A DNA stretch of 64,000 bases from Streptomyces physcomitrii (GTDB lineage: Bacteria > Actinomycetota > Actinomycetes > Streptomycetales > Streptomycetaceae), in NCBI RefSeq assembly GCF_012273655.1, contig NZ_JAAWWP010000012.1:1-64000 (forward strand), written 5' to 3'. Both the position numbers and the translations under genes were made by a program. This document shows, piece after piece, positions 270-5,797 of the stretch (position 1 is its first letter; each line of letters begins with the position of its first letter). The notes under the pieces were generated by a model. It saw only the letters and a program-made list of their open reading frames with translations. It was not told where the DNA came from and ran no database searches.

Positions 270-923
270 GTGAGTCTCGCGGACCTGCTCGATCCCCTGC
301 GGACGACCCTGTTCACCGTGCTCGACACCCCGGTCAGCTGGACCGAGGTGCTCGGCTTCGGCAGCGGGGCGCTGTGCGTCTGGCTCGTCGCACGCCAGCG
401 GATGGCGAACTGGCCGATCGGCATCGCCAACAACCTGCTGTTCATCCTGCTGTTCACCGACTCGGGCCTGTACGCGGACGCCGCCCTCCAACTGGTCTTC
501 ATCACCCTTGCCGTGTACGGCTGGTGGACCTGGGCCCACGGGGGTGGTCCCGGTCCCGGCGGCCTCGCGGTCAGCCGTACCCGCCGCGGGGAATGGCTGT
601 GGCTGTGCGCGGCAGGGGTGGTGGGCACCCTCGGTCTGATGGTGCTGCTCGACCGGCAGACGGACTCGACGGTCCCCTTCTGGGACGCGCTGACCACGGC
701 GCTCTCCCTGATGGCGACCTACGGGCAGTGCCGCAAGCGGCTGGAGTCCTGGTGGCTGTGGATCGCCGCGGACCTGGTGTACATCCCGCTGTACGCGTAC
801 AAGGAGCTGTACCTCACCTCCCTGCTCTACGCCGGTTTCCTCGCCCTGTGCCTGCTCGGACTGCGCAACTGGCGCGCCGAGCTGGAGACGGGGCGCCCGC
901 TCGCGGCGGGGGCGGCGGCGTGA
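270..923 (+). CDS. pnuC: PnuC-type nicotinamide riboside transporter
   Basis: A 217-residue, strongly hydrophobic protein with about seven membrane spans. PnuC-family marks are visible: NWPIGIANN at residues 47-55 and the aromatic run YGWWTW at 83-88. PnuC proteins carry nicotinamide riboside into the cell by facilitated diffusion, driven by phosphorylation inside. GTG at 270 was chosen because AAGGAGG sits 6 nt upstream; an ATG at 216 would put the operator inside the gene. The stop overlaps the GTG of nadR (GTGA), so the transporter is translationally coupled to the kinase that would trap its substrate. Confidence 0.9.
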   Translation: MSLADLLDPLRTTLFTVLDTPVSWTEVLGFGSGALCVWLVARQRMANWPIGIANNLLFILLFTDSGLYADAALQLVFITLAVYGWWTWAHGGGPGPGGLAVSRTRRGEWLWLCAAGVVGTLGLMVLLDRQTDSTVPFWDALTTALSLMATYGQCRKRLESWWLWIAADLVYIPLYAYKELYLTSLLYAGFLALCLLGLRNWRAELETGRPLAAGAAA

Positions 924-2026
924 GCCGCCCTCGGCACGGCCTGGTCCTCGGCAAGTTCTATCCGCCGCACGCCGGGCACCACCATCTGGTCCGCACCGCC
1001 CGCGCCCGCTGCGAGCGGCTGACCGTGCTGGTCTGCGCCGCCTCGGTGGAGACGCTGCCGCTGGCCGACCGGGTCCGGTGGATGCGGGAGACGCACCCGG
1101 ACTGCCGGGTCATCGGGATCGTCGACGACATCCCGATGAACCTCGCCGACCCCGAGATCTGGGACGCGCACCTGGCCGTCTTCCGCCGGGGTGTGCCGGA
1201 GCGGGTGGACGCGGTGTTCACCTCCGAGGAGTACGGGGCGGAGCTGGCCCGGCGGTTCGGGGCGGTCCACGAGTGCGTCGACCCGGCCCGGGCGGCCTTC
1301 CCGGTCTCCGGCACCGCGGTGCGCGCCGACCCGGTCGCCCAGTGGCACCACCTCGCCCCGCCGGTACGGGCCGCGCTGACCCGGCGGGTGGTCGTACTCG
1401 GCGCCGAGTCGACCGGGACGACCACCCTGGCCCGCGCGCTCGCCGCCCACTACCGGGCGCGCGGCGGGGTCTGGGCCGCGACGCGCTGGGTGCCCGAGTA
1501 CGGGCGCCGGTACAGCGAGCGCAAGCTCGCCGCGCTGCACGTCCGGCGGCCCGAAGCGCGGTGGGAGGACGCGGAGTTCACCGCGGCGGAGTTCCCGCTC
1601 ATCGCCGAGCGGCAGAACGCCCTGGAGGAGGAGGCCGCCCGCGCGGGCGGACCGGTGCTCTTCTGCGACACCGACTCCTTCGCCACCACCCTCTGGCACG
1701 AGCGCTACCTCGGCGGACGCAGCCCCCGTACCGAGGAGATCGCCGACCGCGTACGGCACCACCTGTGGCTGCTCACCGACCACGCGTCGGTGCCCTTCGA
1801 GGACGACGGGCTGCGCGACGGCGAGGAGCTGCGCCCCTGGATGACCGGGCGCTTCCAGGCCGAACTCGCGCGCACCGGGCGGCCGTTCGTGCACCTGCGC
1901 GGCTCCCGCGAGGAGCGGCTGCGGACGGCCGTCGGCGCGGTGGACGCCCTGCTCGCGGCGGGCTGGGAGTTCGGCGATCCGCTGCCCGATCTGACGGGCG
2001 CCGGTGCCGCCGGGGAGGGCCGGTGA
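920..2026 (+). CDS. nadR: NadR-like NMN adenylyltransferase / ribosylnicotinamide kinase
   Basis: A 368-residue bifunctional enzyme. The N-terminal nucleotidyltransferase domain has GKFYPPHAGH at 11-20 (the HxGH ATP-binding motif) and SGTAVR near 130-135 (the ISGTxxR-type motif). The C-terminal half is the ribosylnicotinamide kinase domain, with its phosphate-binding loop GAESTGTTT at 161-169. It would convert imported nicotinamide riboside to NMN and then NAD in the cytoplasm. There is no N-terminal helix-turn-helix, unlike the enterobacterial three-domain NadR. The loop lacks the usual Walker lysine (GxxxxGKS/T has become GxxxxGTT). GTG overlaps the pnuC stop and the 3' end overlaps nrtR. 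Confidence 0.88.
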   Translation: MSRPRHGLVLGKFYPPHAGHHHLVRTARARCERLTVLVCAASVETLPLADRVRWMRETHPDCRVIGIVDDIPMNLADPEIWDAHLAVFRRGVPERVDAVFTSEEYGAELARRFGAVHECVDPARAAFPVSGTAVRADPVAQWHHLAPPVRAALTRRVVVLGAESTGTTTLARALAAHYRARGGVWAATRWVPEYGRRYSERKLAALHVRRPEARWEDAEFTAAEFPLIAERQNALEEEAARAGGPVLFCDTDSFATTLWHERYLGGRSPRTEEIADRVRHHLWLLTDHASVPFEDDGLRDGEELRPWMTGRFQAELARTGRPFVHLRGSREERLRTAVGAVDALLAAGWEFGDPLPDLTGAGAAGEGR

Positions 2027-2934
2027 GCCCCGCGGACACCGGCCGCGTACGGGCCGCGCGCCGCGAGAGGCACGACAACAGACCGGAGAAGCACGACGGC
2101 AAGCCGGAGGAGTACGACGGCAAACCGGAGGTGCACGCCGAGCCGGAGGCGCACGACGCCAGGCCGGAGGCGCACGACAAGCCCGAGGAGCACGAGACGC
2201 CGGACGAGCACGAGATGCCCGAGGGCTACGACAAGTACGCCTTCGAACCCTTCGCGGTGGCGGTCGATCTGGCGGTGTTCACCGTCCGGGAGGGCCTGCT
2301 GCAGGTGCTGCTCGTCGAACGCGGGCAGGCACCCTGGGCCGGCCACCGCGCCCTGCCCGGCGGCTTCGTCCGGCCCGCGGAGTCCGCGGAGTCCGCCGCC
2401 CGCCGCGAACTCGCCGAGGAGACGGGGCTCGCCGGGGCACTGGCCGAGGCGGTGCACCTGGAGCAGCTGGCCACCTACAGCGCACCCGACCGCGATCCGC
2501 GGATGCGGGTGGTCTCGGTCGCCTACACCGCGCTCGTACCGGACCTGCCCGAGCCGCGCGGCGGGGGAGACGCGGCCCGCGCCGACTGGGTGGCCCCCGC
2601 CGCCGCCGGACCGCTCGCCTTCGACCACGCGCAGATCCTCGCCGACGCCCGGCTGCGCATCGGCGCCAAGCTCGAATACACCTGCCTGGCAACGGAGTTC
2701 TGCCCGCCGCGGTTCACCCTCGGGGAGCTCCAGCAGGTCTACGAGACGGTCTGGGACACCCGCCTGGACCGCCCCAACTTCCGCCGCAAGGTGCTCGCCA
2801 CCCCCGGCTTCGTCGAGCCGGTCCCGGGCGCCGCCCGCCTCACCGGGGGCCGCGGCAAACCCGCCGCCCTCTACCGCGCGGGCCCGGCCACCGCCCTGCA
2901 CCCGCCGCTCCTGCGACCCGAAGGACGCCCCTGA
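2023..2934 (+). CDS. nrtR: NrtR-type Nudix transcriptional regulator
   Basis: A 303-residue protein: a low-complexity leader (about residues 18-65), a Nudix domain (about 75-205) and a C-terminal winged-helix domain with the NrtR-like FTLGELQQVYE segment. NrtR proteins repress NAD-biosynthesis genes and are released by ADP-ribose. The Nudix box is complete here (G114, E120, R128-E129, E132-E133, G135), whereas many NrtR regulators have degenerate boxes, so residual ADP-ribose pyrophosphatase activity is possible. GTG at 2023 overlaps the nadR stop. An ATG at 2215 (residue 65) would remove the His/Glu-rich leader and start at the conserved part. The stop overlaps the next ATG. Confidence 0.85.
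   Translation: MSPADTGRVRAARRERHDNRPEKHDGKPEEYDGKPEVHAEPEAHDARPEAHDKPEEHETPDEHEMPEGYDKYAFEPFAVAVDLAVFTVREGLLQVLLVERGQAPWAGHRALPGGFVRPAESAESAARRELAEETGLAGALAEAVHLEQLATYSAPDRDPRMRVVSVAYTALVPDLPEPRGGGDAARADWVAPAAAGPLAFDHAQILADARLRIGAKLEYTCLATEFCPPRFTLGELQQVYETVWDTRLDRPNFRRKVLATPGFVEPVPGAARLTGGRGKPAALYRAGPATALHPPLLRPEGRP
2053..2220 (+). repeat. Degenerate His/Asp/Glu/Pro-rich coding repeats in nrtR leader
   Basis: Inside the 5' part of nrtR a 15-18 nt motif recurs about eight times, encoding variants of HDxxPEE (for example HDGKPEE, YDGKPEV, HDARPEA, HDKPEEH). The stretch is highly charged and predicted disordered. It ends at an in-frame ATG, so it may be a repeat-expanded extension or partly untranslated leader. 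Confidence 0.7.
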
Positions 2935-3953
2935 TGACCCAGCCTCCCGTGCTCGCCGCCGCCACCGGTTCCCTGCTCGGCCTCGCCCTCGGGGACGCGC
3001 TCGGCGCACCCACCGAGTTCCAGGACCTGCCCGCGATCCTCGCCGCGCACGGCCCCTGGCGGGAGCTGGAGCTGCCGGACCCCGCCAAGGTCACCGACGA
3101 CACCCAGATGACCCTGGCCCTCGGCGACGCGCTGCGCGAGACGATGGACCGCGGCCCGCTGGACGCCCCGCAGATGACCGAGGCGGTACGGGCGGCCTTC
3201 GTCGACTGGTCCGTCTCGCCGGAGAACGACCGCGCCCCGGGCGCCACCTGCCTGCGCGCCTGCGAGCTCCTCGCCGACGCCGGGCGCCCCTGGCAGGACG
3301 CCAGCCGCGTCGACTCCAAGGGCTGCGGTGCCAATATGCGGGTCGCCCCGCTCGGCCTCGTACCCCGCCTCGGTGACGAACAGCGGGCGGGCGGCGCCCA
3401 GTTGCAGGCCGCCCTCACCCACGGCCACCCGACCGCGCTGGCCGCCTCCGACCTGACCGCCCACGCGATACGCCTGCTCGCCGAGGGCACCGAACCCGCC
3501 GCACTGCTCGACCAGTTGCGCGCGTACGCCGGGGACAACCGGGAGACCTACCACGAGCACTGGCTCGGCGACCTGTGGACCCGGAGCCACGCGGCCTCGG
3601 CCGAGGAGTTCATCCGGCGCGGCTGGGACGAGTGCCTGGACTCCCTGGAGCGGCTGCGCTCGGCGCTCGGGTCCGCCTCCCCGGAGGCCGACCCCTGCGA
3701 GGCCACCGGCGCGGGCTGGATCGCCGAGGAGGCGCTCGCCACCTCGCTGCTCTGCTTCCTGCAGTTCGCCGACGAGCCGGTCACCGCCCTGCGCCGGGCC
3801 GCCTGCACCTCCGGCGACTCCGACTCGCTCGCCGCCCTGACCGGAGCCTTCGCCGGGGCCCACCACGGCACCGGCACCTGGCCCAGCGAATGGGCCGACC
3901 GCATCGAGTACGAAAGCCGCCTGGTGACGCTCGGGGCGCTCTGGGACGCCTGA
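2934..3953 (+). CDS. ADP-ribosylglycohydrolase (DraG/ARH family)
   Basis: A 339-residue all-helical hydrolase. Metal-binding motifs of the ADP-ribosyl(glyco)hydrolase family are in place: GDALG at 20-24, TDDTQM at 54-59 and GDSDS at 294-298. Members use two Mg ions to remove ADP-ribose from proteins or small molecules. The ATG overlaps the nrtR stop (TGATG), so the gene is coupled to the NAD-salvage operon. In that setting it could release ADP-ribose, which is also the ligand class of NrtR. Its substrate cannot be read from sequence. Confidence 0.88.
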   Translation: MTQPPVLAAATGSLLGLALGDALGAPTEFQDLPAILAAHGPWRELELPDPAKVTDDTQMTLALGDALRETMDRGPLDAPQMTEAVRAAFVDWSVSPENDRAPGATCLRACELLADAGRPWQDASRVDSKGCGANMRVAPLGLVPRLGDEQRAGGAQLQAALTHGHPTALAASDLTAHAIRLLAEGTEPAALLDQLRAYAGDNRETYHEHWLGDLWTRSHAASAEEFIRRGWDECLDSLERLRSALGSASPEADPCEATGAGWIAEEALATSLLCFLQFADEPVTALRRAACTSGDSDSLAALTGAFAGAHHGTGTWPSEWADRIEYESRLVTLGALWDA

Positions 3954-4013
3954 GCGACGGACGACGATTTCTGAGCGGCGGACGACGATTTCTGAGCGGC
4001 GGACGACGGCTCC
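3951..4013 (+). repeat. 21-bp tandem repeat spanning the stop codon (3 units)
   Basis: Three 21-bp units begin exactly at the TGA of the ADP-ribosylglycohydrolase gene: 3951-3971, 3972-3992 and 3993-4013, each starting TGAGCG and containing GGACGACG. Units 1 and 2 differ at one base; the third diverges at its end. Because 21 is a multiple of three, three in-frame stop codons result. Confidence 0.9.
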
Positions 4014-4087: not shown

Positions 4088-5596
4088 TCAGGCGGGGATC
4101 TGCCGCAGCAGCAGGGCGGCCACCGCGGGGTGGAGCACGTCGTGGTGGGCGCCACCGGTGGCGGGGTCTCCGCGCCGCACCAGCGAGGAGGCGTCGACGT
4201 TGACGATGCCGGGGTCCGGGAGCCCCGCCTCGACGACCGCCTCGATCCCCTGCGCCGCGGTGCCGTTCAGCCCGTGCAGTCCGTCGAAGCCCGCCGCCCC
4301 CCACTTCCGGGCGACCGAGGAGAGTTCCGCGGAGTCGCCGGCCATCTGGGCGGCCAGGGGGTGCATCAGCCCGAGGGCGAGGTCGTGCCGCGAGAAGCAG
4401 CAGACCACGGACCCCTCGACGAACCGCTCGTGCTCCCACAGGGCCCCGTGCCCCGAGACGTGCTGCGGGATGCTGCCGGAGAAGGCGAAGTGGGACATGG
4501 CGGCCTGCAGGAGGGTGAGGCTGTGCACGCGGCCCGCGCTCCGGCCGGGGCCGCTCCTGCCGAGGCCGCGCAGGGCGAATCCGGCCAGCCGCCCGCCCAG
4601 CCCGTGGCCGACGAGATGGATCCGCACCCGGTCCGGATCGACCAGCTCGCGCAAGCAGGCGCCGAGACCGAGCTGCCCGACAAGACCCGCCCTCCGCCGC
4701 AGCACGTGGTGGACGACCTGCCTGAGCAACTCGTGTGCCCCGTACCAGAGTTCATCCGGGTCCAGCTCCCGTTGGTCCCCACCCACCGGGCCAGGGCCGA
4801 CCACGGTCCCGATCCGGCCCACCCGGGCGCTGGGCGGCTCCACGGGCCGGGGCCCGGCGGTCTGCACCTCCTGGAGGGTGCCCTCCTCGGAGGGGTCCTC
4901 GGTGAGTTCGGGCTCCGCGCGCTCCTCCCGTTCCCCGTCCCGCTCCTCCTCGCCGCGCTCCCAGTTCTCGCGGGCGTCCCGCAGCGCGCCGGTGAACTCC
5001 GCGCAGATCGCCTGCGTGTCCTCCACCAGCATCAACGGGTCCGCCTGGGGCAGCAGTTCCCCCTCGGTGTCGCTGGTGTAGTCGGCGCGCGGGTCGTGCA
5101 GCGGGACCTCCGCGAGCCGGCGCAGCGCGGAGCCGAAGTCGTCGAAGGCGGCGGCGCGCCGGGGGCGGTCGGCGAGCAGCTCCGCCAGGGTGTCGAGGGC
5201 GACGGCGCTGTCCGGCAGGATCCGGAGGAGGTCCTCCCGCATCAGCCGGGTGAGCGCCGGTCTCGCCGCGCGCTCCGCCCGCAGTGTGTCCTCCTCGACT
5301 CCCGGCGCGCCCTCGTCCCGGAAGACCAGCGACGGCCACCGCACGCCCACCGCACCGGGGGCCGGTGCCCCGGGTGGCAGCTGCTCCGCCAGGAGGCGCA
5401 GCATCCCGCGGTCGAAGCCCGCACCGAGGGCCGGGTCGTTGTGCGCGCCGTGCACGAACACGTACAGGTCCTCGACGCCGCTGTCCCCGACCGCGGCCAG
5501 GGTCCGCGCCGCCCGCTCCCGGTCGAAGCCGCCGTCCGCGCCGAACTCCAGCCACCCCAGGTGCCGTACGCCCTCGTCCGTGCCCAGCTGTTCCAT
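4088..5596 (-). CDS. Alpha/beta-hydrolase-like protein with a substituted nucleophile
   Basis: A 502-residue protein. An early hydrophobic segment (LYVFVHGAHND) and a later HLVGHGLGGRLAGFAL segment resemble the oxyanion strand and nucleophile elbow of alpha/beta hydrolases. The expected GHSxG reads GHGLG: residue 332 is glycine (codon GGG) instead of the catalytic serine. The region between them is rich in Asp and Glu (about residues 205-235). ATG at 5596 follows GAGGAGG at suitable spacing. The protein is probably cytoplasmic, since no signal peptide is seen. It resembles large actinobacterial conserved proteins with serine-hydrolase folds. It is either a pseudoenzyme or uses different chemistry. 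Confidence 0.6.
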   Translation of the reverse strand: MEQLGTDEGVRHLGWLEFGADGGFDRERAARTLAAVGDSGVEDLYVFVHGAHNDPALGAGFDRGMLRLLAEQLPPGAPAPGAVGVRWPSLVFRDEGAPGVEEDTLRAERAARPALTRLMREDLLRILPDSAVALDTLAELLADRPRRAAAFDDFGSALRRLAEVPLHDPRADYTSDTEGELLPQADPLMLVEDTQAICAEFTGALRDARENWERGEEERDGEREERAEPELTEDPSEEGTLQEVQTAGPRPVEPPSARVGRIGTVVGPGPVGGDQRELDPDELWYGAHELLRQVVHHVLRRRAGLVGQLGLGACLRELVDPDRVRIHLVGHGLGGRLAGFALRGLGRSGPGRSAGRVHSLTLLQAAMSHFAFSGSIPQHVSGHGALWEHERFVEGSVVCCFSRHDLALGLMHPLAAQMAGDSAELSSVARKWGAAGFDGLHGLNGTAAQGIEAVVEAGLPDPGIVNVDASSLVRRGDPATGGAHHDVLHPAVAALLLRQIPA

Positions 5597-5797
5597 GGCC
5601 CGCCTCCTCGTACCGCCCCGCTCCACCCGGAGGAGGCGAGGCCGCGCACCGCCCGTCCGCGGCTGCCCGGCACCCGGCGTCTTCCGGGGATGCCCGCATT
5701 CCCCGGGAACGGGGCGGCACACACGCCGTCGAGGGGGCGCTCGCGGTGAAGTCCCGGGCGCCGCCGCGAGGTTGCGGGATCTGCGCGGTGCTCGCCG

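Follow-up and report, generated by a model that had tools for sequence, protein, structure and literature searches.

Results

Arrangement of the operon

The window analysed here spans 64 kb at the start of contig C4 from the genome of Streptomyces physcomitrii (7.64 Mb in 51 contigs). Its base 1 is the first base of the contig, and the DNA 5' of base 1 lies outside the view. Close to this end, four co-directional genes were found on the + strand, coding for a PnuC-type transporter, a NadR-like protein, the Nudix repressor NrtR and an ADP-ribosylglycohydrolase (ARG). Together with a palindrome in front of pnuC they probably form an autoregulated operon that responds to ADP-ribose and is run by a dedicated NrtR paralogue, named NrtR-A here. 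The following genes and promoter elements were assigned:

270-923, + strand: pnuC, nicotinamide riboside transporter family (PF04973 NMN_transporter, E=1.9e-57; TIGR01528, E=4.1e-30; 4qtn, E=1e-8)
920-2026, + strand: nadR-like gene, nicotinamide mononucleotide adenylyltransferase and ribosylnicotinamide-kinase-like domains (Pfam AAA_28, E=3.8e-31; CTP_transf_like just below the threshold)
2023-2934, + strand: nrtR (paralogue A), Nudix domain and winged-helix DNA-binding domain (PF00293 NUDIX, E=1.8e-20; PF21906 NrtR_WHD, E=2.2e-15; 3gz5, E=1.6e-24)
2934-3953, + strand: ARG, ARH/DraG superfamily (PF03747 ADP_ribosyl_GH, E=5.5e-64; 2woc DraG, E=1.2e-16)
216-221, + strand: -35-like hexamer TTGCGC, spaced 17 nt from the -10 hexamer (by eye)
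239-244, + strand: -10-like hexamer TATAGT, within the left arm of the operator (by eye)
237-259, no strand: predicted NrtR-A operator, 23-bp palindrome TTTATAGTC-N4-TGACCATTAA, found as best match in 74/74 related loci
258-264, + strand: Shine-Dalgarno-like stretch AAGGAGG of pnuC, overlapping the last bases of the operator (by eye)

The initial annotation had placed the four genes in one operon and in this order, which was confirmed: the open reading frames overlap by 4 nt (pnuC/nadR-like), 4 nt (nadR-like/nrtR) and 1 nt (nrtR/ARG). The long frame after ARG (4088-5722) lies on the opposite strand; hence, the operon probably ends with ARG. No transferase gene was found among the four. All parts are of known kinds, and the solved relatives SoNrtR (3gz5), DraG (2woc), NadR (1lw7 and 9x6f) and PnuC (4qtn) were matched. 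Of the NCBIfam models, the PnuC equivalog TIGR01528 passed its cut-off (105.1 bits vs 42.45), while those for NadR, NrtR and DraG matched far below theirs.

Conservation among related genomes

An NrtR match was detected in 120 of 121 genomes of the genus, the source genome included. Matches with at least 65% identity were defined as NrtR-A (79 genomes, giving 79 loci outside the source genome since G024 has two), those with about 51-63% as NrtR-B. Among the matches listed, NrtR-B occurred in at least 50 of the 79 NrtR-A genomes, and a B-like protein was the best match in 38 of the 42 genomes without NrtR-A. For comparison 74 of the 79 A loci were fetched, which omits five that lie on short contigs.

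Of the 74 loci, 31 had all four genes in the order of the window. In 37 loci nrtR-ARG stood alone, five loci (L042, L043, L069, L073, L101) kept remnants or one of pnuC and nadR, and one, the second copy in G024 (L103), consisted of pnuC-nadR-nrtR without ARG. In total, nrtR adjoins ARG in 73/74 loci, pnuC-nadR is complete in 32/74, and in all 42 loci in which it is absent or broken ARG still stands beside nrtR. Thus, the layout is real and conserved, and a chance neighbourhood is ruled out by the 31 four-gene loci and the 73 nrtR-ARG pairs. The conserved core consists of the repressor and the eraser; nicotinamide adenine dinucleotide (NAD) salvage comes as an optional addition. The opposite view, with salvage at the conserved centre, was rejected, pnuC-nadR being the varying part.

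A second set comprised the best 80 of 324 loci from the NrtR search; it is biased, and all 80 loci are from Streptomyces. All carried nrtR-ARG. The complete arrangement was found in 18, one of pnuC and nadR in three and nrtR-ARG only in 59, of which two (L189, L218) have upstream DNA too short to tell. Outside the family, pnuC-nadR-nrtR without ARG was also observed (L158, L163).

A third sample started from ARG, which was detected at E<=1e-40 in 29 of 296 genomes of the class, 25 of them of the genus (including the source). NrtR-A adjoins ARG in 19 of the 24 other genomes of the genus. A NadR match at E<=1e-20 was obtained in 8 of the 25 ARG-bearing genus genomes; in 17 of the 25, source included, none was obtained, with the best few first-look candidates scored.

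In a tree built from 74 NrtR+ARG rows (73 relatives and the source) the label 'no pnuC-nadR' required 3 changes, and all three labels together required 8 vs a mean of 28.2 after shuffling; such a tree cannot distinguish gain from loss, and the source row forms a long branch of unsure position. The remnants of pnuC and nadR favour loss in the loci that bear them.

Predicted operator and promoter

The predicted operator covers the -10 box and extends to the ribosome-binding stretch of pnuC. In the 74 related loci its best match had 0, 1, 2, 3 and 4 mismatches in 46, 14, 7, 4 and 3 cases, respectively; the reversed pattern gave 6-10 mismatches in the same loci. When whole loci were scanned, the end of the operator ranged from 6 bp within pnuC to 33 bp ahead of the first base of the pnuC alignment in 32/32 loci that have pnuC-nadR complete. 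For the remaining 42, the operator was located 12-301 bp before the aligned nrtR (39 loci) or before the surviving nadR (3 loci). A TTG at a spacing of 16-18 nt from the -10 box was seen in 54 of the 74 related promoters; of the 71 promoters whose operator has <=3 mismatches, 19 show a spacing of exactly 17 nt.

In the source genome TATAGTC-N4-TGACYATWA occurs at a single place at <=2 mismatches (reversed control 0). At <=3 mismatches, at least one A-type site was found in 40/40 genomes scanned, the reversed control being 0 in 37/40 and non-zero in 3/40. In G095 the genes are split: nrtR-ARG lies on contig C20 with an operator at 4 mismatches, and the unlinked pnuC-nadR on contig C29 has an A-type operator with 1 mismatch. 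The salvage arm is thus predicted to be wired to NrtR-type control even when it is unlinked from nrtR.

In several loci without pnuC-nadR (L036, L040, L041, L045, L051, L054, L061) the region upstream of nrtR showed two overlapping operators with an offset of about 16 bp.

The second paralogue NrtR-B

A second, widespread NrtR is encoded in the source genome at C51:125706-126452 (L108). In 10/10 B loci examined nrtR-B was preceded by a palindrome of its own, TTATCGTCAGGCAGACGACTA or near, which differs from the A-type operator in one base per half-site. Ten genomes were scanned with TTATCGTC-N4-TGACGATWA at <=3 mismatches. This gave 2-9 places per strand and genome (reversed pattern 0-2). The seven places in the source genome were the ARG operon, nrtR-B and five at 3 mismatches: one each before nadA, pncB (divergent from clpS) and nadE, one in the interior of a response-regulator-like frame (by eye) and one on C11.

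Furthermore, 20 sites were fetched from other genomes. The expected genes were found behind all that resembled the first three of these five, namely nadA in 8/8, pncB-clpS in 8/8 and nadE in 2/2; these 18 sites had been chosen for their likeness to those of the source genome and show conservation, not an unbiased rate. Judged by eye, the remaining two lie at a Nudix-hydrolase-like frame in L329 and at one of SPFH-like type in L330. The former (G276 C2:226706) is a B-type-like palindrome before a stand-alone Nudix-hydrolase-like frame.

The recognition-helix-like segment reads NFRRKV in NrtR-A (R254, 74/74 rows) and NFHRKV in NrtR-B (His, 10/10). This position is one of 16 columns fixed differently in the two groups. 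Based on the separate operator classes, the downstream genes and this helix residue, NrtR-B is likely a general repressor of NAD synthesis (nadA, pncB, nadE and itself), and NrtR-A looks like a dedicated paralogue split from this general regulator. Control of all NAD genes by NrtR-A was not supported: the source genome has one A site, and the NAD genes carry B-type sites.

The five genus genomes in which NrtR-A does not adjoin ARG have only B-like NrtR (with one weak extra match in G365). Their ARG has a B-type operator in three cases (G365, G276, G398; 1 mismatch each), and in G390 and G088 none was found there. A separate pnuC-nadR of G276 also has a B-type operator. In other families a site of the type TATCGTC-N4-TGACGAT was detected in 4 of 14 nadR loci (L152, L153, L155, L157); the ARGs of four other-family genomes showed no B-type-like operator.

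Sequence features of the encoded proteins

The following elements were located within the genes:

2362-2430, + strand: Nudix box GX5EX7REUXEEXGU of NrtR-A, canonical in 73/74 aligned rows including the source
2695-2877, + strand: NrtR winged helix with the recognition-helix-like segment (Pfam, alignment)
2070-2213, + strand: imperfect tandem repeats in nrtR, charged HDxKPE-like N-terminal stretch (TRF), variable and absent from most relatives
3093-3104, + strand: ARG metal motif TDDT (DD and last T in 74/74 rows; the first position is T in 53 and Ser in 21)
3813-3827, + strand: ARG metal motif GDSDS (74/74 rows)
1400-1429, + strand: P-loop GAESTGTTTL of the nadR-like gene, Walker A lysine replaced by threonine (alignment with solved NadR relatives)

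NrtR-A has the architecture of its family, an N-terminal Nudix domain and a C-terminal NrtR winged helix, both above the Pfam cut-offs, and SoNrtR (3gz5) aligned across residues 62-293. The other family trait, a palindromic operator before its own or NAD genes, was seen as a predicted site in 74/74 loci. The gene start is ambiguous: GTG 2023 has a Shine-Dalgarno-like stretch, and translation may alternatively begin further in, near 2215. For most relatives the alignment with NrtR-A does not start before about residue 53-69.

The intact Nudix domain asserted by the initial annotation was found. The single row with a non-canonical box (L041) has the last Gly changed to Ala, and the three Glu of the box are kept in 74/74 rows. 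NrtR-A thus carries the motif expected of an active Nudix hydrolase, and hydrolysis of ADP-ribose by the NrtR-A clade is plausible. The MsNrtR paper describes the prototypic NrtR as both hydrolase and repressor (PMC6800001), and SsNrtR, which has a degenerate box, is reported to lack detectable hydrolase activity (PMC12735969).

In SoNrtR, ADP-ribose is described as contacted by Tyr10, Phe15, Arg41, Asn43, Lys76 and Arg98 (PMC4666351). These residues were mapped through the 3gz5 alignment, with an offset of 3 deduced from residue letters and spacing. The equivalents of Arg41 (R100) and Arg98 (R160) are Arg in 74/74 rows and that of Tyr10 (Y69) is Tyr in 73/74. The Phe15 equivalent F74 varies (Phe 49, Tyr 14, His 11 of 74).

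ARG belongs to the ARH superfamily by PF03747 and by its TDD and D-x-D metal residues. Among the relatives its identity to the window copy is 63-73%. The DraG subclass was considered for ARG and rejected: the position of DraG Asp97 is Asn in 71/74 rows, the Glu of the ExxA motif (Glu121) has no counterpart in the pairwise alignment, and the dinitro_DRAG model matched far below its cut-off. The source ARG itself has Asp (D99) at the Asp97 position. The source genome contains three PF03747 genes. As for possible partners, it has one sirtuin, and no DarT match was obtained in it; other transferase families were not searched. Another of its ARG genes (C51:115634-116413; L108 4879-6483) lies directly 3' of a histidine-phosphatase-like frame (by eye), a pair that resembles the pairing described in PMC9503650.

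In the nadR-like protein the segments GKFYPPHAGH and SGTAVR are present, which we take to be the HxGH-type and SxTxxR-type nucleotidyltransferase motifs. Domain searches found no DNA-binding domain. The three solved NadR relatives with alignments shown have Lys at the altered P-loop position, which is called essentially conserved in NadR (PMC7221760). Among 57 aligned rows from the genus and the class, with at least one genome counted twice, this position is Thr in 55, Ala in one and Lys in one. The Walker-B-like Asp (D250) is kept in 56/56 rows. In the Thr-type rows R181, which lies within an RGG stretch, and R262 hardly vary; both are absent from the single Lys-type row. Since a Walker A lysine is expected in the kinase domain of a bifunctional NadR, the protein is called NadR-like here. 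Either its kinase works without this lysine, or the protein does not phosphorylate nicotinamide riboside.

Discussion

Proposed function

The arrangement is best explained as an autoregulated operon for the response to ADP-ribose, run by a dedicated NrtR paralogue; we estimate the probability of this at roughly 0.6. At rest, all four genes would be blocked by NrtR-A bound to the operator (237-259), which covers the -10 box. When NAD-consuming reactions raise the level of ADP-ribose, or of a close derivative, this ligand would bind to the Nudix domain and the promoter would be freed. ARG would then strip ADP-ribose from an acceptor and release more of it, which would give a positive loop; that the ARG product reaches NrtR is our inference. 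Where present, PnuC and NadR would import nicotinamide riboside and rebuild NAD. The intact Nudix site may finally hydrolyse ADP-ribose and reset the switch. One changed base per operator half-site would keep NrtR-A apart from NrtR-B. The full form of this proposal, a self-timed switch in which the ARG product opens the operon, the repressor closes it by hydrolysing its own inducer, and the Arg/His exchange with the one-base difference insulates it from NrtR-B, is unlikely to hold in every part.

Several observations weigh against this interpretation. Of the SoNrtR contacts, the Asn43 equivalent Q102 is Gln in 55/74 rows and mixed otherwise, and the Lys76 equivalent E133 is Glu in 74/74. The actinobacterial relative NdnR of Corynebacterium glutamicum is reported to respond to NAD (PMC4666351). 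MsNrtR, whose box is degenerate, showed no hydrolase activity; a three-residue reversion gave no activity, the engineered canonical-like box leaving the protein inactive, and 50 mM ADP-ribose is stated for release of MsNrtR (PMC6800001). The intact Nudix box was dropped as a mark of the ARG-linked copy: NrtR-B has a canonical box, too. In the ARG-based sample 5 of 24 loci had no adjacent NrtR-A, and two of these had no operator; around the ARGs of four genomes from other families, no operator was seen and no NrtR lay within 1.5 kb. The missing P-loop lysine leaves the kinase step of NadR unproven. Regarding the division of labour between the paralogues, the nadA, pncB and nadE sites of the source genome match at 3 mismatches only, and sharing a palindrome is no proof that these sites are bound by NrtR-B and not by NrtR-A.

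Alternative explanations

It is possible, though doubtful, that the operon is an ARG-centred unit of repair or defence, which removes ADP-ribose placed by foreign or endogenous transferases, e.g. of phages, with NrtR as damage sensor and pnuC-nadR refilling NAD. The conservation of nrtR-ARG (73/74 vs 32/74 for complete pnuC-nadR, with remnants in five loci) fits this idea, as do the operon without transferase gene and the source genome without DarT match, and a like logic is published for ARG with Nudix or WYL repressors in actinobacteria and others (PMC9503650). However, a defence library gave no match for three of the four proteins and one weak match for NrtR (E=1.5e-4), and the 63-73% identity of ARG is fairly high, unlike the rapid evolution described for such systems. 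Salvage also seems to be under NrtR-type control, with the A-type operator in G095 and the B-type in G276 and the 4/14 nadR loci of other families.

Rather unlikely is a regulator that responds to NAD, as a co-repressor, or to another molecule derived from NAD instead of ADP-ribose; the operon would then answer a drop in NAD, with no input from ARG to the sensor. The NAD response of NdnR and the changes at the Asn43 and Lys76 positions speak for it, and the family has an arabinose-sensing member, BtAraR (PMC4666351). Against this, the equivalents of Tyr10, Arg41 and Arg98 are nearly invariant in NrtR-A, whereas BtAraR is described as being without Arg98, Lys76 and Asn43 (PMC4666351), and the Glu at the Lys76 position is an ordinary residue of the Nudix box.

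A plain Streptococcus-type NAD-salvage operon with ARG as a passenger is highly improbable: in S. sobrinus pnuC-nadR is known to be controlled by NrtR (PMC12735969), and pnuC-nadR-nrtR occurs without ARG in L103 and, in other families, L158 and L163, but ARG stays beside nrtR in all 42 loci with pnuC-nadR gone or broken, has B-type operators in 3/5 genomes without NrtR-A, and overlaps the preceding reading frame.

Comparison with known systems

One of the closest known systems is the operon of Streptococcus sobrinus, in which transporter, NadR and NrtR are likewise combined, an operator precedes pnuC, and ADP-ribose lifts SsNrtR off the pnuC and pncB promoters (PMC12735969). In contrast, the passages describing that operon mention no ARG, and SsNrtR has an inverted domain order and a degenerate Nudix motif (PMC12735969). 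It also runs pncB, which here appears to be the task of the second paralogue.

With the ARG-centric systems (PMC9503650) the operon shares an ARG beside a Nudix-helix-turn-helix repressor without a coupled transferase; induction by released ADP-ribose was proposed there. A phosphatase is present in a little over 55% of these systems (PMC9503650), and its authors do not demand a coupled phosphatase or chaperone in each of them. Unlike in the systems described there, no phosphatase, chaperone or nuclease gene is found among the four genes, and an arm for NAD import and synthesis takes their place. PnuC has 0 occurrences in the main text of PMC9503650.

MsNrtR of Mycobacterium smegmatis is, like NrtR-A, an actinobacterial Nudix-helix-turn-helix autorepressor of NAD genes. 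It differs in running nadA-nadB-nadC, in its degenerate, inactive box and in its palindrome GTTTTCGA-N7-TCGAAAAC (PMC6800001). NrtR-B is its likelier functional counterpart. ARG shares fold family and metal motifs with DraG of Rhodospirillum rubrum and other ARH enzymes, and departs from DraG as described in PMC7050489 at the Asp97 position and in the adenine motif ExxA.

The initial annotation had proposed a self-contained, ADP-ribose-sensing circuit for NAD salvage. This idea is largely in print already (PMC9503650, section 3.8; PMC12735969). It is partly supported by the sequence and plausible in outline, in view of the autoregulated-looking unit, the conserved Tyr10, Arg41 and Arg98 equivalents, the Nudix box and the metal motifs of ARG; its basis in salvage had to be given up, since complete pnuC-nadR is missing in 42/74 loci and ARG in 1/74. 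'Self-contained' agrees with the one operator in the genome at <=2 mismatches, but the circuit is not basically one of NAD salvage. ADP-ribose as the known ligand applies to SsNrtR (PMC12735969), not to NdnR, which responds to NAD, or BtAraR, which responds to arabinose (PMC4666351). New relative to that annotation are the predicted operator (237-259), the existence of NrtR-B and the absent or broken pnuC-nadR in 42/74 loci.

In the literature searched, no paper was found that pairs an ADP-ribosylglycohydrolase with PnuC, and one that names it together with NrtR; RegPrecise 3.0, in the passages on NrtR, goes no further than citing the earlier work (PMC3840689). Our additions are the divergence of the two paralogues, the one-base code of their operators and the optional nature of salvage; the operon or a Streptomyces NrtR regulon may have been predicted earlier. 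For Streptomyces many predicted erasers of ADP-ribose and one known writer are reported, and seven DraG-like genes of S. coelicolor are called uncharacterised (PMC5087735). One eraser class now gains a candidate regulator, operator and inducing signal. Two sister repressors may share a ligand yet split their targets through one base per half-site, the consumption of NAD might itself induce NAD repair, and a NadR variant without the P-loop lysine is widespread. If the self-timed switch exists, a repressor that also clears its own inducer would be dedicated to the removal of ADP-ribosylation.

Further observations

In PHROGs all four proteins matched phage families (best E 1.9e-29, 5.9e-58, 2.9e-20 and 4.4e-52); each of them thus has relatives in phages. 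A plasmid search gave two NrtR matches with 51-54% identity, and in a phage search relatives of ARG with <60% identity were found in 21 records.

The frame at 1-243 is cut by the contig start. By eye it begins like an AraC-type regulator and then drifts; it is possibly a gene remnant. From the end of ARG a 21-bp tandem repeat extends over 3950-4008 (2.8 copies, 97% match).

NrtR-type palindromes (A-type, B-type or both) were also noticed between arcA (arginine deiminase) and an SPFH-like frame, or before an SPFH-like frame alone: G109 C1:2813821-2813876 (L275), G084 C40:2243 (L254), G007 C1:7469124-7469178 (L308) and G005 C1:6820459 (L330). The identity of arcA was confirmed by NCBIfam only in L308. 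These sites hint at a possible link between NAD control and arginine use.

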